Source of the DNA: a virus
Length of the DNA: 25,327 bases
Direction: 5' to 3' (one strand)
Virus record (IMG/VR): IMGVR_UViG_3300042090_001939
Coordinates: 1-25,327 of that record
This document shows positions 10,106-25,327 of this stretch, piece after piece. The translations under genes and the position numbers were made by a program. The notes beneath the pieces are model-generated. The model was given only the letters and a program-made list of their open reading frames with translations, was not told the DNA's origin and did not search any database. The number at the start of each line of letters is the position of its first letter. Position 1 is the first letter of the stretch.

Positions 10106-10336
10106 TTAGTCTTCCTCTTCGGTTACGCTTTCATTAATGAAATGGGCGAGGCTTTCGTTCTCATCCAACGATGCCTGTATCCGCAGCACCTTTTCCCAAC
10201 TCACTGCTCCCCTCAATGACTGGAGCAACTGCAGGTTGCGTTGGGTCAGATACTCCCCCAGACGGCGCTTCAGTTCCGGATTGCCCGCCAGAATCTTGTG
10301 AATCGGGTGCGGCTTGCTGTTGGTCGGTTGCTCCAT
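10106..10336 (-). CDS. Small helical phage protein overlapping the portal C-terminus
   Basis: The 76-residue product starts MEQPTNSKPHPIHKILAGNP. It is helical and charged, with LQSLRGAVSWEKVLRIQASL and a C-terminal acidic helix ending VTEEED. The pattern 'W-E-x-h-L-R-x-Q-x-x-L' recurs in small proteins that I recall next to portal genes in other phages. AGAGGAACC lies eight bases before the ATG. The first 176 bases overlap the last 58 codons of the portal gene in another frame, so this stretch appears to encode two proteins. Function unknown; a head-assembly accessory is plausible. Confidence 0.65.
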   Translation of the reverse strand: MEQPTNSKPHPIHKILAGNPELKRRLGEYLTQRNLQLLQSLRGAVSWEKVLRIQASLDENESLAHFINESVTEEED

Positions 10337-12122
10337 TTTCTGGTTCCTCTTCAGGTTTCATTTGTGCGAACGAAGCCGGAATAAAAACATCCGGGTCGCG
10401 CACGTCATCAAAACATCGCAGATATGCGCGGATACTTTCGGTGGCCGCAACGGCCGTTTCCTTCGCCATTTTTTTGATGGTCTGCGGCGCTTGTGGATTC
10501 ATGAGCACCTGCGAGAGACCCATCATCTTCTCGTAGTAGCCACCCATTACTTGTATGCGCTCCATAGCATTTTGCTTATCGGCTTGGCGGTTGATGCTCT
10601 GCGAAGTCGCTGTCGTTTCAATGATAATCTGGTCGCGCATATCAGTGCTCTTCGCAGTCTTGAACACGGCTTCAATGAGTTCGGCATTCTTCAGCCCCAC
10701 AGTGTAGATAAGGAATTCGAGAACCGATGCACGCCACTGGCCGCCCTTCAGATACTCTTCACGAAGGCGCATGAAGCACTGTGTCATCGCATGTGCAAGG
10801 GCGCGACGAATGTTGTCGAATGGTCCTGTGAAGCGGCGGTTCTGCTGTTGTAGAGCAGTCATCGCGGTGGCAGCCGGGACGCGCTTTCCTGCCTGTATGC
10901 CCGCGGCCGGTCCCATGGCGGGAGTGCCGACGCGCATTTCGCAGAGCGCGATTACGGCAGCTTCATATTGTTGCGCGCTCGGATACATATCCGACATCTT
11001 CTTCTCAATAAGGTCATGCTCAGGGTCAGCCAACCCTATGGGCTTGTTGGGAGAGATTTTCATCTCCTCGCCAATGCCTACTGCTCCGAGTCGGTAGGCC
11101 CAGAGACGGCTATTGGCAAGGTGCGCGTTTTGCATTTTGAAGTTGTGCCATTCAGTGACTTCTCGCTGGAAGGGCCGGGCCATTTCCAGTACGCCCAAAC
11201 CGTAGAAGACATAAGGTCGCAACTGATACCGAGAAATAGCAAACGGCCGTGAATCGTAAGGGGCAAACGTGACAATCCCCACCGCTTTACTTGTACGGTC
11301 CCACACGCAGAACAAATCCTCAGCGAAGCCGTCTCCATCATAGTCATAGTAGAGGTGCACGCTGAACACTTCATAAAGGTTCCCCGTCGTCGTGGTATCT
11401 TGGTCTGACTTTTCTGTTTCAAGACGGCGCTGACGCACCCAGTCAATGTTGCCTGCTTTCTTGAATTGCGAGATGTCCCAGCCGTTTGCAGCAGCAATTT
11501 CGCGGAGTTCGGACTCGTCGTAGTACATGCGCTGTGCAATAAAGGGCATGGCATCAACATCAGGAAACGTGCCACCGGGAACAACAAGGTCTTCAGGGGG
11601 AACCGAAAAGACCCTTGGACCTATGTTAAGTTCCTTGACGGTGGCACGTTTCACAGTCTCTTTACTGTTTACGATATAGTATGCGCTTGTCCCAAGTTGC
11701 ACGGTGTCAGTGATAACATCGTCAGCGGCAGCGCGTATATTGGTGAAGTCATCAAGAAGAAGCTTGTCGGCAAGAAGTTGAAAAGCTGCGGCATTGTTGT
11801 GATAGCCAACGCTTCCTCGGCAACTAAAGACGGGCGCGGTGTTCCAGATAAGGTCATATACGGTGCTCGTGATGCTGTCGGCCATCGACGCGCCCACCGG
11901 TATTTCGATGATAAACTGCGGACTGTCTTTGGCAAAGTCCTTCGAAATGATTTCCGGGATGCCGTCGTACTGGCGGATGCAACTGCGCCACACAAGGTCC
12001 AGCCAATGGCGCTTGCTGATACCGTCTTCGATACGCAGCGAGAGATAGCTACCCAAAGCAAGGTCCGCATTCGATGTACGTTTTATTACGTCTTTGCCTG
12101 TCGTTGCTTCGATAAATCGCAT
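10161..12122 (-). CDS. Portal protein
   Basis: The 653-residue product starts MRFIEATTGKDVIKRTSNAD. The size and layout are those of podovirus portals. A helical N-terminal wing is followed by VFSVPPEDLVVPGG (about 171-184), the beta region EVFSVHLYYDYDGDGFAEDL, and the stem/clip-like segment GLGVLEMARPFQREVTEWHN (308-327). Later helices (ALAHAMTQCFMRLREEYLKG) give the crown. The last 60 residues are low-complexity Gln/Pro/Ser/Gly. The ATG is directly adjacent to the tailspike stop (TAAATG). The portal forms the dodecameric DNA gate of the procapsid and is followed here by scaffold, as expected. The low-complexity tail overlaps the 76-residue gene in a second frame. Confidence 0.82.
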   Translation of the reverse strand: MRFIEATTGKDVIKRTSNADLALGSYLSLRIEDGISKRHWLDLVWRSCIRQYDGIPEIISKDFAKDSPQFIIEIPVGASMADSITSTVYDLIWNTAPVFSCRGSVGYHNNAAAFQLLADKLLLDDFTNIRAAADDVITDTVQLGTSAYYIVNSKETVKRATVKELNIGPRVFSVPPEDLVVPGGTFPDVDAMPFIAQRMYYDESELREIAAANGWDISQFKKAGNIDWVRQRRLETEKSDQDTTTTGNLYEVFSVHLYYDYDGDGFAEDLFCVWDRTSKAVGIVTFAPYDSRPFAISRYQLRPYVFYGLGVLEMARPFQREVTEWHNFKMQNAHLANSRLWAYRLGAVGIGEEMKISPNKPIGLADPEHDLIEKKMSDMYPSAQQYEAAVIALCEMRVGTPAMGPAAGIQAGKRVPAATAMTALQQQNRRFTGPFDNIRRALAHAMTQCFMRLREEYLKGGQWRASVLEFLIYTVGLKNAELIEAVFKTAKSTDMRDQIIIETTATSQSINRQADKQNAMERIQVMGGYYEKMMGLSQVLMNPQAPQTIKKMAKETAVAATESIRAYLRCFDDVRDPDVFIPASFAQMKPEEEPENGATDQQQAAPDSQDSGGQSGTEAPSGGVSDPTQPAVAPVIEGSSELGKGAADTGIVG

Positions 12123-14600
12123 TTAGATGCCCAACCCAAACGTGCATGCGCTGCCAGCATAAGCCAGCGACGGTGGCGTAAACGTTGAAGGAAGAATACC
12201 CGAAGCCGACGTGCCGGTCGTCGCTGCGAATCCCGGAACAATCGCGGCGTTGGCACTGGCAGAAAGACAATTGAAGGCAGCAACCGCCGAGTTACCTGTC
12301 CATGCGAGCCAATAAAGTCCCGGTGAAAGAGTCACAGTGGACAAGCACGAGCCGCTGCTGCTTCCACTGCAACACTGTGCAGGTGTGTGGTTTGCTGTGC
12401 AAGCGGCGTTCGTCTGAAAGACTGAAGAGAACACGCCCGTTGCTGAAAGGGCTTGCGCGCCAGTATCGACAAGGAGCGTACCTGCGGACGTGTAGAGTCC
12501 CACGTCATAAGCATGTGCCGCATCAAGCGTAGACACCCATGTTTGGAACTTCGTAAAGGTGATGCTTGTTGGTAGGTAAAATGCTTCCACCATGAGCGTA
12601 TTGGCAGTAAGGTTAACGCCTGCGCCACTTGCTACCTGCGGACCACTGAAATAGGATGCCGGATTAGGAACGATTGAAACATCGAACAGATAGTTCGAGA
12701 CTGGTGCCAAGTATCCATAGTAAGGGTTGAGAAACGTTACTTGTGTCGAGTATTCCGCGTTCGAGTCAATCTGCACAAAGTAGTTCGTGAAGCTGTTACC
12801 ATTGAAGTTCGTGCCAACAAAAGAAGCTTTCGTCGGAGCCGACGAGTTGCCGTCGATGTAAACCGCAGGAGCCGAGACATCACCGATGCTGCCTGAGACG
12901 GCACCGCCGACCCATGTAAAGGTTTCCATGGAGTCAACGTGAACGTCGCCGAGGAAGTTCGGTCCGGGATTCTCGTTGTCAGCGCCGCACGAACTGCAAT
13001 TGAAGTAGCCGTAGCCGGTGTCACCGTATGCGATGTAGCCCCAGATGTTGCTTGACTGTAGCTGTACAGTGAGACCCGTGATAGACGTCCCATCGCCAAC
13101 TGTGGCGAAGCCGACGAGACCGCCAACGAGTTGGGTGTCCCCACCAAAGTTCTGCAGACCACTTTGGCCACCGTCATAAAAGTCAATGTTGTTTGCAAGA
13201 ACGTAAAGTTCGTCCCAACCATTCTCGAAATCGTTATCGAGTTCGTACACGCCATAGGTGCCACCCACGATGGTGACATCATGAAAGTGACAACCCTGCA
13301 TTTCTTGTCCGATGATGCCGACGCCGCCACGGCCCGGGTTCATACTCAAGTCGTACATCTCAACACCTTCCACACCATAGGTGCCACTGACGAAGATGCG
13401 GGGATACGTGAACATCACGTGGCCACCGGCGCTATAGAACTCAAGCTGAATGAGATTGTTGAATGTCGTACTCGGGTTGGCGATAACGATAGTTGAACTT
13501 GTCACTGTCGGGAACGTGCCGAGCGGCGTGAACACTTGCGTGCCAACTGTGGTTGACGCTGTGCTGAAATGCGAAGGAATTGCCGACTGCACTTGGACGC
13601 CATCAATGTAGCCGTTGATGTTGCTACTGGTCGCTTCCGGATAAGTGTACGGATAGTAGCCGCCGCCGATTGCGAGCACTTCCCAATAAGGCTGATAGAT
13701 GGTGCCAGTCATCGCAACGACGGATACGAGTAGTCCATTTGTGAAGAGACGTGCGTGTGCACCGTCGTAGGTGACAGTCTCCTCATAAATAGTACCCGTG
13801 GCAAAGGTCGTTGTGTTGTCACTCAATGCGATGTTGCCCGAGGAATTGGCAAGCTGTGCAGTTACTTTGCCCCCACTAAAGAGTATGTTCGCACAAGACG
13901 TATTACCGCGAGTAGTCGGACCATTGCCAGCGCCACCACCATTTCCCGAAGAAATGATTATGCTGCCGTTTGTGCTCGTGGAGTTCAGTTCAATATATGC
14001 GTCGAGGAGAAGTGCGCTCTTTCCGTTGAGAAGGTTCGGCCCGGGGGATTGATTGTCCACACCATCAATGACATCGTTCATGTTGATGTTATAGGCGTTT
14101 GTTGCCCCGGTGAAAGAAAGAGACTGCGTGCTACCTGTAACGAGCGATGGTCCGTATTGCGCGCCGGGTGTGGTCTTCGAACCATAGACGAAAACGGGTG
14201 TGCCATTGATGTTCTGAATTATCTGATAGTTGTTCGTCCCATACGATGGGCCTTGCAGCTTGATGCCACTGCACCACACATAAAGCGGGTAGCCGTTGTC
14301 GTTATAAAAGTTGCTGGGCGACGGCCAATAGACAGTGGACGAAATGGGAAAACCGTTACTCTTGGCGTTGCACGCGGCGTCAATGGCATTCTGTTCCGCA
14401 ACGTGGTCGTCGGTCACGCCATTCCCTTTTGCACCAAAGTCAGTGACTTGATAGACCTTCGAGATGAAGCCAGTTGTTATCCCGCCCCCGCCGATGGAAC
14501 CGATACCGACACCGCCAAGGTTAGAAGCTTGCCCAAGCACTTGTCCGACGAGGAACAAGACAATCAAAAAGGGCGCGATGATTTTAGATATAGTTCGCAA
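12123..14600 (-). CDS. Tailspike: signal peptide, pectate-lyase-type beta-helix and LamG-like domain
   Basis: The product has 825 residues if translation starts at TTG 14600 (GGAACC six bases upstream). No ATG lies in the first 170 codons. The N-terminus has a signal-peptide-like run (residues 1-24, KIIAPFLIVLFLVGQVLGQA). Residues 49-77 carry VTDFGAKGNGVTDD, the opening motif of pectate-lyase-3/GH28-type right-handed beta-helices. Residues about 155-345 look like a LamG/concanavalin-type sandwich (LLLDAYIELNSTSTNGSIII, LFTNGLLVSV, INGYIDGVQV). Residues about 380-650 continue the beta-helix, and 665-825 form a final beta domain with Cys pairs. Such proteins bind or cut host surface polysaccharide. 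A signal peptide is unusual for a virion protein. Confidence 0.8.
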   Translation of the reverse strand: MRTISKIIAPFLIVLFLVGQVLGQASNLGGVGIGSIGGGGITTGFISKVYQVTDFGAKGNGVTDDHVAEQNAIDAACNAKSNGFPISSTVYWPSPSNFYNDNGYPLYVWCSGIKLQGPSYGTNNYQIIQNINGTPVFVYGSKTTPGAQYGPSLVTGSTQSLSFTGATNAYNINMNDVIDGVDNQSPGPNLLNGKSALLLDAYIELNSTSTNGSIIISSGNGGGAGNGPTTRGNTSCANILFSGGKVTAQLANSSGNIALSDNTTTFATGTIYEETVTYDGAHARLFTNGLLVSVVAMTGTIYQPYWEVLAIGGGYYPYTYPEATSSNINGYIDGVQVQSAIPSHFSTASTTVGTQVFTPLGTFPTVTSSTIVIANPSTTFNNLIQLEFYSAGGHVMFTYPRIFVSGTYGVEGVEMYDLSMNPGRGGVGIIGQEMQGCHFHDVTIVGGTYGVYELDNDFENGWDELYVLANNIDFYDGGQSGLQNFGGDTQLVGGLVGFATVGDGTSITGLTVQLQSSNIWGYIAYGDTGYGYFNCSSCGADNENPGPNFLGDVHVDSMETFTWVGGAVSGSIGDVSAPAVYIDGNSSAPTKASFVGTNFNGNSFTNYFVQIDSNAEYSTQVTFLNPYYGYLAPVSNYLFDVSIVPNPASYFSGPQVASGAGVNLTANTLMVEAFYLPTSITFTKFQTWVSTLDAAHAYDVGLYTSAGTLLVDTGAQALSATGVFSSVFQTNAACTANHTPAQCCSGSSSGSCLSTVTLSPGLYWLAWTGNSAVAAFNCLSASANAAIVPGFAATTGTSASGILPSTFTPPSLAYAGSACTFGLGI

Positions 14601-14841
14601 TGAAGGTTCCGCTCGAAATGGTCGTCACGTTGAGTCCGTTGACGACGAGTGGGTTTGCAAGTGCCTTGGACATATCGTACACTGCAGAAGTGGCTTCAGC
14701 TTGCCAGACGATACGGCCGCTGTTATCAACGACGACGAGTTGGTCCCCAAGCGTGCCACTACCCATCCATTCGAATGAGGTGATGGTGACAGCGGCAATC
14801 GTAATGACGCCCGTTGCTGTTGCTTTCATGCTGGCGTTCAT
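14584..14841 (-). CDS. Small beta-rich protein, paralogue of the 16821-17105 product
   Basis: This 85-residue protein starts MNASMKATATGVITIAAVTI. Its core has GDQLVVVDNSGRIVWQAEAT, then VVNGLNVTTISSGTF. These match the 94-residue protein at 16821-17105 in order and spacing (GD-x-VV-x-D-x-G-x-hh-WQ-x-AT ... VNGL ... SGT), so the two are probably duplicates. The start overlaps the upstream stop as TAATG and the end overlaps the tailspike start by 17 bases. Being directly upstream of the tailspike gene suggests a virion surface or fibre-associated role. I recognise no family. Confidence 0.7.
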   Translation of the reverse strand: MNASMKATATGVITIAAVTITSFEWMGSGTLGDQLVVVDNSGRIVWQAEATSAVYDMSKALANPLVVNGLNVTTISSGTFIANYI

Positions 14842-15020
14842 TAGTCTTTCACCTTCTTTTTCTCAGCCTTCTCTAGTGTACGAATGCGTTGGTCTTGGCC
14901 ATTCGCAACGTGCAGAAGAAGGTCGAGCACGTCAAGGACGCGGGCGTCACTGCCAAAATTGGCAAGACTCTTGATTTGCAGGACAGCCAACTTGGCGTCA
15001 TCGATGTCATTAATGGACAT
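14841..15020 (-). CDS. Small helical protein (hypothetical)
   Basis: A 59-residue product read by hand from ATG 15020 to TAA 14843-14841. It starts MSINDIDDAKLAVLQIKSLA and continues through a leucine-rich segment (VLDVLDLLLHVAN) to a basic, lysine-rich end (EKAEKKKVKD). The whole chain could be helical, perhaps a coiled coil. GGAGAACGG precedes the ATG. The gene overlaps the stop of the lipoprotein gene upstream and joins the next gene in TAATG, which is good evidence that it is translated. No function can be assigned. Confidence 0.75.
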   Translation of the reverse strand: MSINDIDDAKLAVLQIKSLANFGSDARVLDVLDLLLHVANGQDQRIRTLEKAEKKKVKD

Positions 15021-15222
15021 ATCCGTTCTCCAGTATTGTGAGTTTGCGCTTCAGGGCATTGGCATTTGCGTCGTCAAAGCAGAGCGCATACGGACATGCA
15101 CGCGCCGGTTCGCTTATGACTTCAGGAGTAGAAGGCATTGGCGGGTACACTCGTACTGACGTGCATCCCGCCAATGTGCTCAGCCCGACTAGGAGACTAA
15201 AGATGAGTGCGACCTTCTGCAT
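15010..15222 (-). CDS. Small proline-rich lipoprotein, outer-membrane spanin candidate
   Basis: The chosen start is ATG 15222, preceded by GGGAGTGTCG, which gives 70 residues beginning MQKVALIFSLLVGLSTLAGC. This is a textbook lipoprotein signal with an LAGC lipobox (lipidated Cys20). The mature part starts CTSVRVYPPMPSTPEV and is Pro-rich at first; it ends in a basic helix. Small, Pro-rich lipoproteins in lysis cassettes are usually outer-membrane spanin subunits (Rz1-like), which fuse the membranes after lysozyme action. It overlaps the holin-like gene by 26 bases. The partner inner-membrane spanin is not obvious. Another lipoprotein role, such as superinfection exclusion, remains possible. 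Confidence 0.7.
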   Translation of the reverse strand: MQKVALIFSLLVGLSTLAGCTSVRVYPPMPSTPEVISEPARACPYALCFDDANANALKRKLTILENGYVH

Positions 15223-15406
15223 CGACACTCCCATCGGCAGCAGGTGGCGTCTGGTACAGATGGTAGACGCTCGCAACGAGAGTCACCACGGCTGCCCAAA
15301 CACCTGCGTACTGCGGCGGTATGGTGTTACCCACCAAGCTGGCCACAGACGGGGCAATTGCCACCGCCATGGACAGAAAGATGGTGATTTTGTTTTTCGT
15401 GCTCAT
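15197..15406 (-). CDS. Holin-like two-span membrane protein
   Basis: The 69-residue product starts MSTKNKITIFLSMAVAIAPS. Two hydrophobic segments, about residues 8-26 and 34-52 (YAGVWAAVVTLVASVYHLY), are joined by a short NTIPPQ turn and followed by a polar tail with acidic and basic residues. Size, two spans and a charged C-terminus are those of class II holins. It lies in the same cluster as the lysozyme and the spanin-like lipoprotein. The ATG directly follows the previous stop (TAAATG). Holin topology is inferred from hydropathy by eye. Confidence 0.65.
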   Translation of the reverse strand: MSTKNKITIFLSMAVAIAPSVASLVGNTIPPQYAGVWAAVVTLVASVYHLYQTPPAADGSVDAEGRTHL

Positions 15407-15838
15407 TTACTTGCTCACGGGAGCCGCGGTCACTGCAGGCGACGGAGCAGCAGTCGGAGCCGGTACGCCACTCTCAGTCGAAGCGCATCCGCCCAAAGCA
15501 ACAGTCGCCGGGACCACAAGCTGGTTGCTAGAGTTGGTGTAGCCATAAACTTGACAAGAGAACTGACTGACCGAAGTTGCGTAGGTAGTGCTGATGGACA
15601 GCGGCAGCGCCGGAGCCTTACCCTCGCAATAGAGGACCAACGCGGCGTAGTCAACCTGCGACTGTGCGTTGCAGTAGTTCTGCGCGCTCATAGTGAGAGC
15701 CGCAGCACTCGGGACGAGCGAGTTCTTCTGCGAGAGTTCCTGTTTCAGCGTAGGGGTTTTGAGACCACCACCCACCTGCGAACAGGCCACGAGAGAGAAC
15801 GCGAGCGCACCGAGTAGCATTGCTTTGAATAGTTTCAT
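15407..15838 (-). CDS. Phage-encoded lipoprotein
   Basis: The product has 143 residues and starts MKLFKAMLLGALAFSLVAC, a lipoprotein signal with lipobox LVAC (Cys19). The mature part is Ser/Ala/Gln-rich with four more Cys, spaced so that two disulphides are possible. It ends in a Pro/Ala repeat-like tail (PAPTAAPSPAVTAAPVSK), a likely flexible or wall-spanning segment. AGGAGAAAAGGAA precedes the ATG. It sits between lysozyme and holin, so it may serve lysis or block later infection. No family recognised. Confidence 0.75.
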   Translation of the reverse strand: MKLFKAMLLGALAFSLVACSQVGGGLKTPTLKQELSQKNSLVPSAAALTMSAQNYCNAQSQVDYAALVLYCEGKAPALPLSISTTYATSVSQFSCQVYGYTNSSNQLVVPATVALGGCASTESGVPAPTAAPSPAVTAAPVSK

Positions 15839-15849
15839 TTCCTTTTCTC

Positions 15850-16170
15850 CTAGAGGGCCAAAATGAATGGTTCGGCCAGTTGCATCACGGCAGACGAAAT
15901 GTCCCCGAGAAAGTTTGTGAGGCTTTGGTCAGTCGGAGTTGCCATGGGTGGCATCACGACAGCATCAGCGTTCATCGTGTCCCGACAGACCGTTGTAATA
16001 GTTGCTGGTGCAAACACCCGCGTCTGAATCTGCGTGCGTTCACAGTTGAGTCCATTAAAGGTGCCGTACTGATAGTCATGTATAATGGGCGTGCAGCCAA
16101 CTGGCCCTGTGAGAATCAGAAGCGTCAACGCCGCGGAAAGAAGGAAGCTGCAGATTATTCTGTCGGCCAT
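15850..16170 (-). CDS. Secreted or membrane-anchored small protein, possible lipoprotein
   Basis: This 106-residue protein starts MADRIICSFLLSAALTLLIL. The hydrophobic run extends to residue 24 and is followed by GPVGC, so Cys26 could be lipidated, although Pro at position -3 is unusual for a lipobox. The mature part is mixed and ends with a hydrophobic helix (SSAVMQLAEPFILAL). GGAGACAGGCGA lies before the ATG, within the end of the lysozyme gene (16-base overlap). The position straight after lysozyme suggests a lysis function, for example a spanin-type protein. This is inference. Confidence 0.65.
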   Translation of the reverse strand: MADRIICSFLLSAALTLLILTGPVGCTPIIHDYQYGTFNGLNCERTQIQTRVFAPATITTVCRDTMNADAVVMPPMATPTDQSLTNFLGDISSAVMQLAEPFILAL

Positions 16171-16577
16171 TCGCCTGTCTCCAATATGCTCATGTCACGC
16201 AGTGCCCGGTCTGAGCGTTCGGCTGCCCACTTCGACTGCAGGCCACAAGCCGCAGCCGTCTTGTAGTCACGCTTCAGAAGAGCCACTTGCATGTCTTTGA
16301 ATTCCATAATCCCGCCAATACCAATGTTGAACACCATGTCGATGATGGCCGCGCGCCGTACTTCATCCATGCGCTGAAACCAAACAAACGAAGCGAGCGC
16401 GCCACGCGCGACGTCAATATCGTTCTGCTTCAGAATGTTAATCTCGGACTGAGATAGTCCAGTGGCCGTAAGATTCCGTCCCACACCAATGGTGACGTTG
16501 CCAACCGTATCAAGATAAGGTTTGGCACGCCTTCCTTCGTGTAGTTCAATGAGGTCGTTTACGCTTCGTATCGGCAC
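16155..16577 (-). CDS. Endolysin, T4-type lysozyme (GH24 muramidase)
   Basis: With the GTG at 16577 (GAGGAACC just upstream) the product has 140 residues beginning MPIRSVNDLIELHEGRRAKP. The catalytic triad of T4-type lysozymes is visible: Glu14 (HEG), Asp23 (YLD) and Thr29 (NVTIGVG), with the same spacing as Glu11-Asp20-Thr26 of T4. The rest matches in order: NLTATGLSQSE, then RRAAIIDMVFNIGIGGIMEF, then the C-terminal MQVALLKRDYKTAA and RSDRALRDMSILETGEW. It cleaves the MurNAc-GlcNAc bond of peptidoglycan. No signal sequence is seen from this start, so release through a holin pore is expected. Longer starts (GTGs five and four codons upstream of the GTG) are possible. Confidence 0.9.
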   Translation of the reverse strand: MPIRSVNDLIELHEGRRAKPYLDTVGNVTIGVGRNLTATGLSQSEINILKQNDIDVARGALASFVWFQRMDEVRRAAIIDMVFNIGIGGIMEFKDMQVALLKRDYKTAAACGLQSKWAAERSDRALRDMSILETGEWPTE

Positions 16578-16599
16578 GGTTCCTCGCACCACGGGACAG

Positions 16600-16818
16600 T
16601 TATTTGCCTCGCGGTAGTGGATTGGGAAATTCGCTGCCAAAAGGATTGCCGGGAGTCTTTCCGTTGCCGGGGAACTTCCGCACCTTGTCGCGAAGGTCAG
16701 GATAACTCGTATCATAGTCAGCGAGAATGTCTAGCCCGAGAATGTTGCCACACTGCGGCGTGTGGTCCCGTCCTACCCGGCCACGAGTACTTCCTCGACT
16801 GTTGCTTGAAGATGCCAT
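16600..16818 (-). CDS. Hypothetical small polar protein
   Basis: The 72-residue product from ATG 16818 starts MASSSNSRGSTRGRVGRDHT. The N-terminal 20 residues are Ser/Arg-rich and disordered. A short ordered core (CGNILGLDILADYDTSYPDL) follows, then a Pro/Gly/Asn-rich end. GAGATAGAA precedes the ATG, in the overlap with the preceding stop. It lies directly before the lysozyme. No family recognised; a disordered small accessory protein is all that can be said. Confidence 0.6.
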   Translation of the reverse strand: MASSSNSRGSTRGRVGRDHTPQCGNILGLDILADYDTSYPDLRDKVRKFPGNGKTPGNPFGSEFPNPLPRGK

Positions 16819-16820
16819 TT

Positions 16821-17105
16821 CTATCTCAGGTAAATGTAAAGAGTGCCACTCGTAAGCGTTGCACAAATCAGGCCGTTTACAGGTGGTTCCTTTGAGAAGT
16901 CAGTCTCTTCGGACCACGTTACTGCAGCTGTGGCTGTTGCAAGCGACTGCCAAATGACGTTGCCGAAACCGTCCTGCACGACACAGGAATCGCCGGTGCC
17001 AACCGTAAGCGTGACCCAACGAAAGCGCGCGACAGCCCACGTATTCTTCGTGATAGTAGCCGGTGCCGTCACGAGGACGACGCGGCTGCTTTCAGTTACC
17101 GCCAT
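16821..17105 (-). CDS. Small beta-rich protein, paralogue of the 14584-14841 product
   Basis: The 94-residue product starts MAVTESSRVVLVTAPATITK. The core carries CVVQDGFGNVIWQSLAT (41-57), then PPVNGL (74-79) and SGTLYIYL near the end. The same elements occur in the same order in the 85-residue protein at 14584-14841. Alternating hydrophobic residues throughout suggest a small beta-sandwich. TAAGGAGAACCTTAG stands before the ATG. Possibly a virion surface protein, but the position next to the lysis genes gives no firm clue. Confidence 0.7.
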   Translation of the reverse strand: MAVTESSRVVLVTAPATITKNTWAVARFRWVTLTVGTGDSCVVQDGFGNVIWQSLATATAAVTWSEETDFSKEPPVNGLICATLTSGTLYIYLR

Positions 17106-17117
17106 CTAAGGTTCTCC

Positions 17118-17360
17118 TTAGTCCATCGGCTTGCGTCGGCTTCCGTGTGCACCTTTGTGCTGATTATACATCGGCCCCGAAGTGCCCATACCCTTTAGAG
17201 GACGATTGATGCCGCCACTCTGAGTCGGGTTGCTCACCTGAGACTTGTTGGGAAACTCCGCGGACGGGCCAAACATATCGTGCTGCCCGATAGCGACGTT
17301 GTGCTCTTTCTCAGCAATACGCGCGAACTCGTCAGCGTGCGTTCCAGTGGTACCAGCCAT
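17118..17360 (-). CDS. Hypothetical small hydrophilic protein
   Basis: The product has 80 residues and starts MAGTTGTHADEFARIAEKEH. An N-terminal amphipathic helix is followed by a Gly/Asn/Ser/Pro-rich region and a basic end (HKGAHGSRRKPMD), so most of it is likely unstructured. It is the first gene after the consensus promoter at 17402-17430, with GGAG 11 bases before the ATG, and would be made in large amounts. No known family recognised. Confidence 0.65.
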   Translation of the reverse strand: MAGTTGTHADEFARIAEKEHNVAIGQHDMFGPSAEFPNKSQVSNPTQSGGINRPLKGMGTSGPMYNQHKGAHGSRRKPMD

Positions 17361-17401
17361 TTTCTTAATGCTCCGAAGTTAAGGGTCTACAATCAACACA
17401 C

Positions 17402-17430
17402 ATTCTAGCACATCGCCAAAGGCTTGTCAA
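17402..17430 (-). promoter_or_regulatory. Consensus sigma-70 promoter
   Basis: Minus-strand TTGACA (17430-17425) is a perfect -35. It is followed by 17 bases and TAGAAT (17407-17402), preceded by TGC (extended -10). The -35 overlaps the stop region of the terminase nuclease ORF. Transcription should start near 17395 and serve the accessory and lysis cluster. Confidence 0.88.
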
Positions 17431-18041
17431 CGGGAGAATCCGCCGTAACGAGGGTCGCCGCGGAACTGGTTCTGCCAACGCGTTTCCTCGTTATAGATTG
17501 GGTCGTATTCCAGCTTGCCACGATTCGCGAGTGGGTCTCGCAACATGCGAAGACACTCCGAGAGAGCGTCAACCAAATCGACCATGAAGCCGGTCGGGTA
17601 CCGTTCGAGTTGCCGATAGAGCATCGGACACGACTCGTTCACATAAAGAAGGCCATTGTGCATCCACCGTTGAATGGTGCTCGTGAGACGAAACTCTTTG
17701 TTCTCAGTAGAGGGCATCTCACGCGGTACAAGAGCGATGCGCTCGCGCCGGATATTCGCTTCTTTCACGACATCTTGAAAATAAAGATTCTGTTGGCCGG
17801 TCGAGTCAATCCCAAAGCGATGACACCGCCACATTCTATTCATTAGAAAGATGTTGCGCGTGATGACATCGGTCGCGCATTTATCTGCCCATTCTGCAAG
17901 GGCAAATGCGCGTCCGTCTGGGATTTGTGCAACAATAACAATGGCCGACTGGCAGCCCTCTTTCGTGAGTTTGCCTGACGCAGGGTCGCACATTCCAACG
18001 ATGTCGGAGAACTCCGCTTTATTAATTGTTTCCAAGTTCAA
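17427..18041 (-). CDS. terL: Terminase large subunit, nuclease half (split gene)
   Basis: This ORF gives 204 residues from the first in-frame TTG (18041) and carries the RNase H-like nuclease domain of large terminases. Motif I is GMCDPASGK (Asp19), with the following strand SAIVIVAQIPDGRAFALAEW. Motif II is GIDSTGQQN (Asp98). Motif III is GFMVDLVDALSECL near residues 151-164. The domain cuts concatemeric DNA during packaging. It contains no ATPase motifs; these are in the separate ORF at 18267-19433. There is no ATG or GTG before the motif-I strand; only TTG codons at 18041 and 18035 are available and neither has a good ribosome binding site. Expression may therefore rely on coupling to the overlapping small ORF upstream. 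Confidence 0.85.
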   Translation of the reverse strand: MNLETINKAEFSDIVGMCDPASGKLTKEGCQSAIVIVAQIPDGRAFALAEWADKCATDVITRNIFLMNRMWRCHRFGIDSTGQQNLYFQDVVKEANIRRERIALVPREMPSTENKEFRLTSTIQRWMHNGLLYVNESCPMLYRQLERYPTGFMVDLVDALSECLRMLRDPLANRGKLEYDPIYNEETRWQNQFRGDPRYGGFSR

Positions 18042-18327
18042 TAAACACCGGCTCGATAGTGATGATACACGGCTTCAGAATTTGTATCAGGTCGCCCACG
18101 AACTCGTCGTCTACGCCAATAGACTGCGCGAGCATAATGGCATCGTCGTTCTCACCCACAACGAACCCTATGGATGCCTCTTGGTCTATGTGCGCCATCT
18201 CATCTTCTACTTCCTCTTTAGATAGCCATGATGGGTAATGAATAGCTCGGTGGTCACGCCACGTGACTAGCACCGCTCGATTTGACTTATTTTGTCCCTG
18301 TGCCAATTCGCCATGCTCTCGTTCCAT
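18022..18327 (-). CDS. Small phage protein inserted between the terminase halves
   Basis: From ATG 18327 (AGGAG 11 bases upstream, 61-base overlap with the ATPase ORF) the product has 101 residues. From GTG 18273 (7-base overlap, weak site) it has 83, starting at VTWRDHRAIHYPSWLSKEEV. The second start fits the recognisable domain better: 'V-x-W-x-D-H ... W-h-S-x-E-E ... S-h-G-F-h-h-G-x-x-D-D-A-h-h-L-A ... G-D-h-I-x-I-x-x-x-h-I'. I recall similar small beta-rich proteins in many phages, often close to terminase genes, with no known function. It has no HNH, GIY-YIG or LAGLIDADG motif, so it is not an intron-type endonuclease. It lies in a different frame from both terminase ORFs. Confidence 0.65.
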   Translation of the reverse strand: MEREHGELAQGQNKSNRAVLVTWRDHRAIHYPSWLSKEEVEDEMAHIDQEASIGFVVGENDDAIMLAQSIGVDDEFVGDLIQILKPCIITIEPVFIELGNN

Positions 18328-19433
18328 GCGGATGTTCGCTCCTCTGGTGTCATTTCGAAAAAGGTCTTGGGCCTACGTTTCTGCCCGGCTACTTCTTGTC
18401 CGCTTGCGATAACGTCAAGAATGTTCTGCGTGTTGTCATCGGTCGTGAAAATTAGGTCCGTTCCATCAAGACGGAACCGGCCACAGAATCGCATATCGAA
18501 AGCGGTAGTCCCAGCACCGACGCCCCGGTTCTCGTAATTGAGATAGTAGAGTTCTCCGTATTTTCGCTTAAAGCCTTCAAGACGGTCCCGAGTAAGTCGC
18601 TCGGGGAAGAGTAGGTCACGACCCGACCCGTCTGCGTTGTAACTCGTATAACAAGAGAGCATTCGAACATCATATTCGTGTTCATTCTCATCTATCCATG
18701 TGTAAAGGTCTTCAGATGCCCAGCGCGTACCAAAAACGAAGTCGAGCGACTTGTCCGGGTTGTTCATCAGCGAGTGCGATGTCTTCCACCACTCGATTGC
18801 AGCGAGCATCAGTTGTGGTTGCTTACGGCTGCGGAGTCCGATAAGGTCGTCCTTGATGAGAACGTCATAGTGGCCACCGGTGCTGCCGCTGTCTACGCCT
18901 GCAGCTTCGAAAGTGCTCTCGGGATAGTCTTCTGTGCGCGGCAGTGAAAAGTGGCTGTTGGTCCACGTATCGGCCGCGGTCTTGCTCTCCCAACACAGGT
19001 GCGGCCACAGGGCACGGAAGAGTTCGTTCTTCTCGTACTGGCGCCGAATCCAGCCAATGCGCGAAAGGGCGCGGCGCTCGTTCTCGGCCGCATAAAGCAT
19101 TCGAACGTTGTAGCCTTCGCGGCCGGGGAAGTACAGGTTGCTCGTGGCCGGTTGAATAGTAATGTGCATACCCAGACAACGCGCCATCGTGGTCTTAAAG
19201 GTGTCGCGTGGCGTCAAGAGCAGCTTACGTGTGTAGGGAATCGTTTGGAGCCAGTTACAAAGGTCACCGTGAAGGTGGACGACGAACTCGTTCATCCCCA
19301 TGATGCCTACGCAAAAGGCATAAAGGGATTCCTCGGCGCGCGTCTTTATCTGAGACGAACGGTCCATGTGCGCGTCGGCGCCAGCTTGGCGGACAGTGCC
19401 GTTATGCTGGACGATTAGCTCGCGGTGGTACAT
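18267..19433 (-). CDS. terL: Terminase large subunit, ATPase half (split gene)
   Basis: The 388-residue product starts MYHRELIVQHNGTVRQAGAD. The packaging-motor motifs are present: a deviant Walker A, TPRDTFKTT (74-82, Lys80), with Phe in place of the usual Gly as in many terminases; an adenine/lid strand with LYAAENERRALSRIGWIRRQ; Walker B YDVLIKDD (189-196); and coupling motif FGTR (234-237). After about residue 320 it has a 70-residue linker and a stop (TAG, 18269-18267) where an intact large terminase would run on into the nuclease domain. The protein overlaps the small subunit gene by 32 bases. Both halves, and the small subunit beside them, argue that this is a working terminase made as two polypeptides. 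Confidence 0.88.
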   Translation of the reverse strand: MYHRELIVQHNGTVRQAGADAHMDRSSQIKTRAEESLYAFCVGIMGMNEFVVHLHGDLCNWLQTIPYTRKLLLTPRDTFKTTMARCLGMHITIQPATSNLYFPGREGYNVRMLYAAENERRALSRIGWIRRQYEKNELFRALWPHLCWESKTAADTWTNSHFSLPRTEDYPESTFEAAGVDSGSTGGHYDVLIKDDLIGLRSRKQPQLMLAAIEWWKTSHSLMNNPDKSLDFVFGTRWASEDLYTWIDENEHEYDVRMLSCYTSYNADGSGRDLLFPERLTRDRLEGFKRKYGELYYLNYENRGVGAGTTAFDMRFCGRFRLDGTDLIFTTDDNTQNILDVIASGQEVAGQKRRPKTFFEMTPEERTSAWNESMANWHRDKISQIERC

Positions 19434-19863
19434 CGCCTGTCTCAGCGAGCGCGCGCTCGGCTCGCTTCTCTTGTTCGGGAGTTAGATGGTATTTGACGGT
19501 CGCTGTCACTTGCGGAACCGGTTGCGCCCGCGGCACGAGGGCTGCGTTTATCATCTCAATGGCACGAAGACGGTCCGAGAGCTTCGCAGTCGTGTCATCG
19601 CGGATGGCGATGAGAGCGCTGAGATTGGGCATTAGCTGCTCCGAGACCAGCTTCGAATATTCGTTGAGCCGTTCCCCGATGAGGGTCTTGCGCGCTTCGT
19701 CTACTTCGTATTGAAAGAGACCGCCTTTCAGGAGCACGTTTACGTATGTAACGGAAACGCCTAGCTGTTCTGCAGCTTCATGCGGCGAAGCTCCCAAGGC
19801 AAGAAGCGAGGCAAGAGTTTTCTGCCGGTTGCGGGTTGCGACGGTCGGTTCAGAATGCTTCAT
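19402..19863 (-). CDS. terS: Terminase small subunit (probable)
   Basis: The 153-residue product starts MKHSEPTVATRNRQKTLASL. Residues about 24-47 form a helix-turn-helix (SPHEAAEQLGVSVTYVNVLL), the DNA-recognition part typical of small terminases. Residues 50-110 form long helices suitable for oligomerisation (IGERLNEYSKLVSEQL, KLSDRLRAIEMINAALV). The C-terminus is Pro/Arg/Ala-rich. It directly precedes and overlaps the large-subunit ATPase ORF. The ATG lies six bases after a TATAAT, with no room for a Shine-Dalgarno leader, so the mRNA may be leaderless (see findings). Assignment rests on HTH plus position. Confidence 0.75.
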   Translation of the reverse strand: MKHSEPTVATRNRQKTLASLLALGASPHEAAEQLGVSVTYVNVLLKGGLFQYEVDEARKTLIGERLNEYSKLVSEQLMPNLSALIAIRDDTTAKLSDRLRAIEMINAALVPRAQPVPQVTATVKYHLTPEQEKRAERALAETGDVPPRANRPA

Positions 19864-20064: not shown

Positions 20065-20105
20065 AAAAAAATACCCTGTGCCAGCTAGGTGCCAGCACAG
20101 GGTAT
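20065..20105 (-). terminator. Rho-independent terminator after the 126-residue gene
   Basis: On the minus strand ATACCCTGTGC (20105-20095) pairs perfectly with GCACAGGGTAT (20081-20071). A 13-base loop separates the arms and a run of seven T (20071-20065) follows. It lies about 20 bases past the stop at 20127 and should end transcription before the terminase genes. Confidence 0.92.
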
Positions 20106-20126
20106 CGGTTAGCGGTACATTCGCGC

Positions 20127-23921: not shown

Positions 23922-25327
23922 TTATGCAGTCTTTGCGAGCATGTTGTTGATTTCCGTGACTCGCTCGTGGCCGACGACTTCGGCGCCGACGATTTGCTCA
24001 GCACCTTGACGGATGGCCTGCGCATGGATATGCAGGATTGTATCCGGGGCCTTTACCACAGCAACCGCATTGCACAGCTTGAGATGCTGTTCCATCATTG
24101 CCATGGAAGCCATGATGTCTTCCTCGGTGATTTCACCGTTGATGGACTCACCCTGCAGCCGGTCAATGGCCGCGATTTTCGCTCGCTCCACGACTTCGCG
24201 GATGACTGCCGGGATTTGGCCTGCCAACGTGCGGCCAATTGCGTCGAAGTCCGCGTCGAACGCCAGCAAACCCCGACTGTACTGCTTTACGAGACGGCTA
24301 GCAGCTTCGGCATCCGGTGGCCGCACGCTGACGACGGTATCGAGTCGGCCGGGTCGCAGGAACGCTTTGTCCAGCTTCTCCACGAAGTTGGTGCTGAACA
24401 CCGTTATCACTTCGTCATGCTTCGTGTTGATGCCGTCCAGTTGATTGAGAATGCCATTGCTCTCAACACTGCGGCCACCCAGTGCCTTGTCCACATCTTC
24501 CACGAAGATGACGGCCGGTTCGTACATGGATGCGAACTTGAGACCTTCCTCAAGGTCGTAGATGCTCTTGAGATAGATGAAAGTCCAACCGTTACGGTTC
24601 GCTTTCGACGCTGTGACAAGTGCCGTCAGCGTCTTGCCGGTACCGTATGGGCCTTCGAGCAGTACACCGCGTTTCAGCGGCACCTGTGCTGCACGGCAGG
24701 CTTCGCTATGCTCGATAGGTGTGAACAGACCCAACTGAAGTGACTGTGCCACGCTCGCCGAGAAAATCAGGTTCTCTTCGTGAGCCTTCGACAAGTCAAG
24801 GTACTTCGGAGCATGCGCCATCGGGTCGAAGTCCATCCCCTGCCGCTTCCATTCCCAGTCGATGGTCACTGACTTGCCACGGTAAATGCTGTCGGTGAAA
24901 AGCATCTCCTTCGTCTTGTCAGCGATGCGGTCGAACGACGGAATGTACTTGCGCTTCGTCTTGCCTTGAACGACAAGACATGGCTCTTGTCCCCATGACA
25001 TAGAAAGCTGCAAGAAGCCCGTCACACCGGGGATTTTGAAGCGTCCCCACGGGACATCAACGAACATCTCCTTGCCATTCGCGTCGATGCCGGTTTGAAT
25101 GTGCAGCATTGTCGGCGGCATGTCGCCAAACATGCCGGGAACGGGCACACCGTCTACCCAGTCATAGATGGCTGCGAGTGCCTTGGAAAAGGCGACCGCG
25201 GCGTCGAGTGGAAAATAGCCCTTGATTTCGCTGGTGAAAACGACTTCGGTTTCTTCGTCGGCCTTCTTGCGATTGAGCCAGACCACTGCGTCATCGATGC
25301 TCATGCTTTCGGGGATGATGACCTTCA
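23922..25327 (-). CDS. AAA+ ATPase, 5' end at the window edge
   Basis: The in-window ATG at 25304 would give 460 residues, but the frame stays open to the edge (preceding codons read KVIIPES) and the last two bases (TG) would complete an ATG if base 25328 is T, so the real start is probably one base outside. Counting from 25304: Walker A GPYGTGKT (218-225), Walker B AVIFVEDVD (264-272), sensor 1 Asn306 (STN), and arginine fingers Arg317/Arg320 (AFLRPGRLD). This is a classic AAA clade, with the ED form of Walker B as in BCS1-like proteins. Residues 1-170 have no recognised domain. It probably remodels a protein or complex during phage replication or host takeover. A terminator follows. Confidence 0.88.
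   Translation of the reverse strand, partial: KVIIPESMSIDDAVVWLNRKKADEETEVVFTSEIKGYFPLDAAVAFSKALAAIYDWVDGVPVPGMFGDMPPTMLHIQTGIDANGKEMFVDVPWGRFKIPGVTGFLQLSMSWGQEPCLVVQGKTKRKYIPSFDRIADKTKEMLFTDSIYRGKSVTIDWEWKRQGMDFDPMAHAPKYLDLSKAHEENLIFSASVAQSLQLGLFTPIEHSEACRAAQVPLKRGVLLEGPYGTGKTLTALVTASKANRNGWTFIYLKSIYDLEEGLKFASMYEPAVIFVEDVDKALGGRSVESNGILNQLDGINTKHDEVITVFSTNFVEKLDKAFLRPGRLDTVVSVRPPDAEAASRLVKQYSRGLLAFDADFDAIGRTLAGQIPAVIREVVERAKIAAIDRLQGESINGEITEEDIMASMAMMEQHLKLCNAVAVVKAPDTILHIHAQAIRQGAEQIVGAEVVGHERVTEINNMLAKTA

Follow-up and report, generated by a model that had tools for sequence, protein, structure and literature searches.

The sequence analysed here, referred to as the window, is a virus contig of 25.3 kb from IMG/VR (IMGVR_UViG_3300042090_001939, 25,327 nt). 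On its minus strand, the ATPase and the nuclease of a large terminase (TerL) lie on separate genes, with a third small gene between them (Table 1). The ATPase and nuclease ORFs share one frame, interrupted by seven in-frame stop codons between the halves, and the third ORF occupies this stretch in another frame. A preliminary description of the locus had proposed a TerL encoded as two polypeptides, kept apart by stop codons and a small ORF. Both ORFs were indeed found where it had placed them, each matching a different part of the phrog_38 profile. The stop codons and the small ORF are also present, with the refinement that the three genes overlap one another and are not spaced apart. The most likely start of the middle ORF is the GTG at 18273, seven bases inside the ATPase gene, which gives an overlap of 7 nt with the ATPase end (61 nt if translation starts at ATG 18327); at its other end, the middle gene runs 20 nt into the nuclease gene.

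Table 1. Features of the terminase region of the window, with the evidence for each.
Feature	Position	Strand	Evidence and remarks
Helix-turn-helix protein, candidate TerS	19402..19863	-	HTH_23, E 0.0013 (below Pfam cut-off); directly upstream of ATPase gene
Large terminase ATPase chain, 388 aa	18267..19433	-	phrog_38 profile; AF2 model matches PhiV-1 terminase and T4 gp17 ATPase domain
Walker A, PRDTFKTT, residues 75-82	19188..19211	-	Alignment with relatives
Walker B, DVLIKDDL, residues 190-197	18843..18866	-	Alignment with relatives
Coupling motif, FGTRW, residues 234-238	18720..18734	-	Alignment with relatives
ATPase C-terminal extension, ~66 aa	18270..18467	-	AF2 pLDDT and secondary structure; conserved in L028
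Middle gene, 83 aa from GTG 18273 (101 aa from ATG 18327)	18022..18273	-	Homologous ORF at the equivalent position in L028
Large terminase nuclease chain, 204 aa, TTG start	17427..18041	-	phrog_38 profile; AF2 model
First nuclease acid, D19 in CDPASGK	17970..17990	-	Invariant column
Second nuclease acid, D79 in GIDSTG	17796..17813	-	Alignment column; Glu in most relatives
Third acidic site, D155/D158 in MVDLVDAL	17562..17585	-	Invariant columns
Sigma-70-like promoter, TTGACA-17-TAGAAT	17402..17430	-	11/12 matches, consensus match only; at nuclease stop codon

The candidate TerS gene overlaps the start of the ATPase gene by 32 nt, and the TerS candidate, the ATPase gene, the small gene and the nuclease gene follow one another in an operon-like row of overlapping or abutting genes. 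The putative promoter at the nuclease stop codon probably marks the border of this terminase unit, and its position suggests that the four genes form one unit ending there. A strong terminator-like hairpin of 16 pairs with a T run behind it lies upstream of the row on the same strand (20070–20106), possibly at its upstream border. Elsewhere in the window are genes for an SU10-like portal, a capsid protein, an SU10-like adaptor and a phage lysozyme. These virion genes look intact; the families of the portal and the adaptor hint at a short-tailed phage. The lysozyme gene and a gene for a large Laminin_G_3-containing protein (10161–17427, minus strand) separate the terminase genes from the portal gene. 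Towards the end of the window, an AAA-family ATPase (23922–25304, minus strand) strongly matches a phage family of unknown function (phrog_10440, E 3e-109).

In profile searches, the ATPase ORF corresponds to positions 266–509 of the 760 positions of the phrog_38 TerL profile (E 2e-23), and the nuclease ORF, of the RuvC/RNase H type, to positions 545–726 (E 6e-21). Two halves lying on either side of one TerL profile with such scores are far beyond chance and place the break, between profile positions 509 and 545, in the inter-domain linker. In L031, a relative with a single chain, the two profiles meet at residues 331 and 342. As the preliminary description had it, the Walker A, Walker B and coupling motifs are all found in the ATPase ORF, and the motifs CDPASGK, GIDSTG and MVDLVDAL all in the nuclease ORF. 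The locus thus has the ATPase domain of a TerL with its three motifs and an RuvC/RNase H-fold nuclease with an acidic triad, the second acid in the window being Asp, not Glu; the two domains are not on one polypeptide, which is the usual but not the universal arrangement.

The single-chain AlphaFold2 models have a mean pLDDT of 73 for the ATPase and 83 for the nuclease. In the PDB, the single-chain PhiV-1 terminase (8dgc_E) is the top match of both chains, although they were folded separately. Next come the T4 gp17 ATPase domain for the ATPase and the RB49 gp17 nuclease for the nuclease, which also matches the T4, P22 and G20c TerL nuclease structures. With the TTG start, about 11 residues precede the first strand of the nuclease, as in its relatives. 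The ATPase extension is modelled as a low-confidence stretch followed by a helix (residues 363–387); it is kept in L028, the nearest kin of the window, and missing from the other split branch. That it serves as a docking arm is a guess.

First scans of IMG/VR, with the window's own proteins or two-sequence alignments as queries, found no relatives. A degenerate, hand-made Walker B pattern led to six further IMG/VR contigs, and an alignment built from them to 45 loci. When all 45 were tested with the profiles, the 15 closest (L014–L028, which include re-fetches and near copies) had the ATPase and the nuclease on different ORFs. The more distant loci showed no separate ORF for the nuclease, and the nuclease profile, where it scored, did so on the ATPase ORF; other single-chain TerLs found by annotation likewise consist of one gene. 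No relatives were found in the scanned bacterial and archaeal genomes. The non-redundant split set comprises 13 members: the window, L028, MW202554.1 and ten further IMG/VR contigs. All but one are uncultured metagenome contigs, most of them partial; MW202554.1 also comes from an environmental sample but is complete.

MW202554.1 (Podoviridae sp. ctLwi270, Manatee Spring) is a complete circular genome in which a 62-aa ORF separates two ORFs that both bear the annotation "terminase large subunit". It belongs to the same clade as the window and shows the same split. It differs in that its middle ORF is unrelated to that of the window, its ATPase carries an intein-like insert of about 235 aa and lacks the C-terminal extension, and its portal gene lies directly downstream of the nuclease gene. 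No second TerL was found with phrog_38 or phrog_2 in five records, among them that of the window and this complete genome, and the weaker nuclease profile PF17289 yielded nothing beyond the known nuclease genes.

L028 has the same three genes as the window, its ATPase being 57% and its nuclease 50% identical. Its middle ORF (L028:1777-2067) is 36% identical over 67 aa to that of the window, and is thus less conserved than the other two. In all three genes, the differences between the two phages are most frequent at third codon positions (for the middle gene, mainly there), and synonymous changes are saturated in the nuclease and middle genes. The dN/dS of the ATPase is about 0.15. Both halves are complete domains, and the way in which they differ from their closest kin is indicative of purifying selection. 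The split could in principle stem from a sequencing error, a misassembly or the decay of an ordinary single-chain TerL, and the frame shared by the ATPase and nuclease ORFs is what two compensating frame errors would leave behind. The layout of L028, together with its third-position changes, rules out an error confined to one assembly and argues against decay; an error within 18022–18270, which the preliminary description had singled out as the possible source of a false split, is untenable, since the L028 middle ORF there is homologous. With the same layout recurring in MW202554.1 and ten other non-redundant contigs, the motifs intact and the ATPase dN/dS low, error or decay is extremely improbable. 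The earlier judgement that a functional split is likelier than decay is supported by the linker break and by the related phages with the same split.

In a maximum-likelihood tree of 39 TerLs, the 13 split members form one clade (support 97/94) among single-chain TerLs. Such a single clade indicates one old fission that was subsequently kept. One fission followed by long divergence would explain the tree, and no re-fusion was seen. The split clade spans identities down to 30%, and several of its members carry a gene in the gap. Single-chain TerLs of the phrog_38 type, as in ICP2, ANMV-1, SIO1 and RIO-1 type phages, have the same domains and motifs and are homologous by profile and tree, but form one polypeptide where the window has two.

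The gene junctions of the clade are tight. From the ATPase to the next gene, the stop and start codons form GTGCTAG in the window, GTGA in L028, TAATG in L015, L024, L025 and L026, TAGTG in L021, and ATGA in L017, L018, L019 and L027; gaps of 1–4 nt occur in L023, L016 and MW202554. From the middle gene to the nuclease gene, the junction is ATGA, TAATG or TGATG in L023, L016, L024 and MW202554, and a longer gap in L015. Stop and start codons overlap or abut at nearly all junctions. In one branch, the conserved last residues of the ATPase, LAEVG, are encoded by codons that read as a GGAGG-like ribosome-binding site of the following gene. These features suggest translational coupling, which would deliver the chains together.

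The same junctions bear on whether the ORFs might be joined into one full-length TerL before or during translation. Splicing has a precedent in Jug phages, whose terL is broken into two or three pieces that group I intron splicing brings together (PMC12363816). In contrast to these, no intron was found here: no Rfam family matched the window at gathering score, and in relatives the genes overlap by 1–4 nt, leaving no room for one. Programmed frameshifting would fit members without a middle gene, whose nuclease ORF overlaps the end of the ATPase ORF in the −1 frame. Yet no slippery heptamer was found within 150 nt of the ATPase stop in 13 members, and two shifts are needed where a middle ORF exists (−1 and then +1 in the window), this ORF being itself conserved with L028. 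Joining by either route is therefore highly unlikely. An intein or split intein at the break was also rejected, the break region consisting of stop codons and a separate conserved ORF. Intein-like inserts of about 235–239 aa do occur within the ATPase ORFs of MW202554.1 (L002:5938-7593) and L027 (L027:602-2386), at the same place in both (between FA and CQQ), before the break and about 40 residues from the split point; that of L027 has a LAGLIDADG_3 match.

Neither Pfam nor PHROGs nor phage records gave a confident match to the middle protein, although its position is shared by two distantly related phages, the window and L028. On one reading, the motor of this branch could not work without it as a third component, which would dock the nuclease to the ATPase. 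Its conserved position and the ATPase extension found only in this branch would fit such a role, and it is possible that the middle protein helps to dock the two chains. As a requirement, however, this is unlikely: the split itself needs no third part, since the middle genes of other split members are unrelated (MW202554, L015/L016, L023, L024) or absent (L017–L022, L025–L027), and the middle protein is the least conserved of the three. Since other branches have unrelated genes or none at this position, the small gene probably entered the gap as a passenger once the fission had happened, and small genes seem to establish themselves in the space that the fission left.

The general statement in the preliminary description that large terminases are almost always single proteins holds, with a published exception in the Arthrobacter cluster AY phages, whose large terminase spans two ORFs (PMC12820723, PMC11920828). 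A two-ORF TerL was thus already known, and the clade of the window is a further, independent instance. These and the Jug phages were the only precedents of a split terminase found in open-licence papers. In cluster AY (BillyTP, PP978841, genes 2 and 3; BlueShadow), as in the window, the ATPase and nuclease are on two neighbouring genes with the break in the linker. In the BillyTP record, the two halves are consecutive and overlapping, and follow TerS. Cluster AY has no gene between the halves, whereas the window and L028 have the middle gene and some members of their clade lack one. The cluster AY halves belong to the phrog_9 lineage (families phrog_19179 and phrog_21277), whereas those of the window belong to phrog_38. 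A common origin of the two splits was rejected by the AU test (p 0.004), in which a long branch is involved. The two splits are independent fissions, for which the family assignment is a stronger argument than the AU test.

Taken together, the TerL described here is very probably a genuine two-polypeptide enzyme that arose from one old fission at the ATPase/nuclease linker. In such an enzyme, the ATPase and nuclease chains would be made by coupled translation and would assemble non-covalently at the portal, where an ATPase ring would drive the DNA in and the separate nuclease would cut the concatemer as packaging begins and again as it ends. Translocation would then be coupled without a covalent hinge. 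T4 gp17 resembles the window in the fold of both domains but is one chain with a hinge, whereas here the chains are separate. When T4 gp17 was split at the linker in the laboratory, both enzyme activities were kept and translocation was lost (PMC3012670). A working split motor must therefore have something that T4 lacks, and the natural split deserves biochemical study.

How the chains share the work is less certain. The ATPase might translocate alone, as in phi29-type motors, with a detachable nuclease that comes in to cut when packaging starts and ends and at no other time. Consistent with this are the loss of the covalent link through the split and the packaging of linear DNA by a nuclease-dead T4 gp17 (PMC3012670). 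In the published T4 model, however, the translocation groove lies on the C-terminal domain, and no translocation was seen once the domains had been separated (PMC3012670); the coupled gene order also suggests that both chains are wanted together. Translocation by the ATPase alone is accordingly rather doubtful. Slightly more plausible, though still tentative, is a true hetero-oligomeric motor, in which the translocating ATPase ring would need no covalently attached nuclease domain, the nuclease would join in its own stoichiometry only at cutting, and, in the branch of the window, the middle protein and the C-terminal helix of the ATPase would help to hold both.

The interest of the two-polypeptide TerL lies in the contrast between a natural split kept throughout a clade and a laboratory split of T4 gp17 that abolished DNA translocation (PMC3012670). 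For annotation, it advises caution, in that a short "terminase" ORF covering one half only is not necessarily a broken gene. The separate chains offer small, individually expressible subunits for biochemistry, and a lineage in which they have been separate since its common ancestor is a natural experiment on the need for a covalent hinge.
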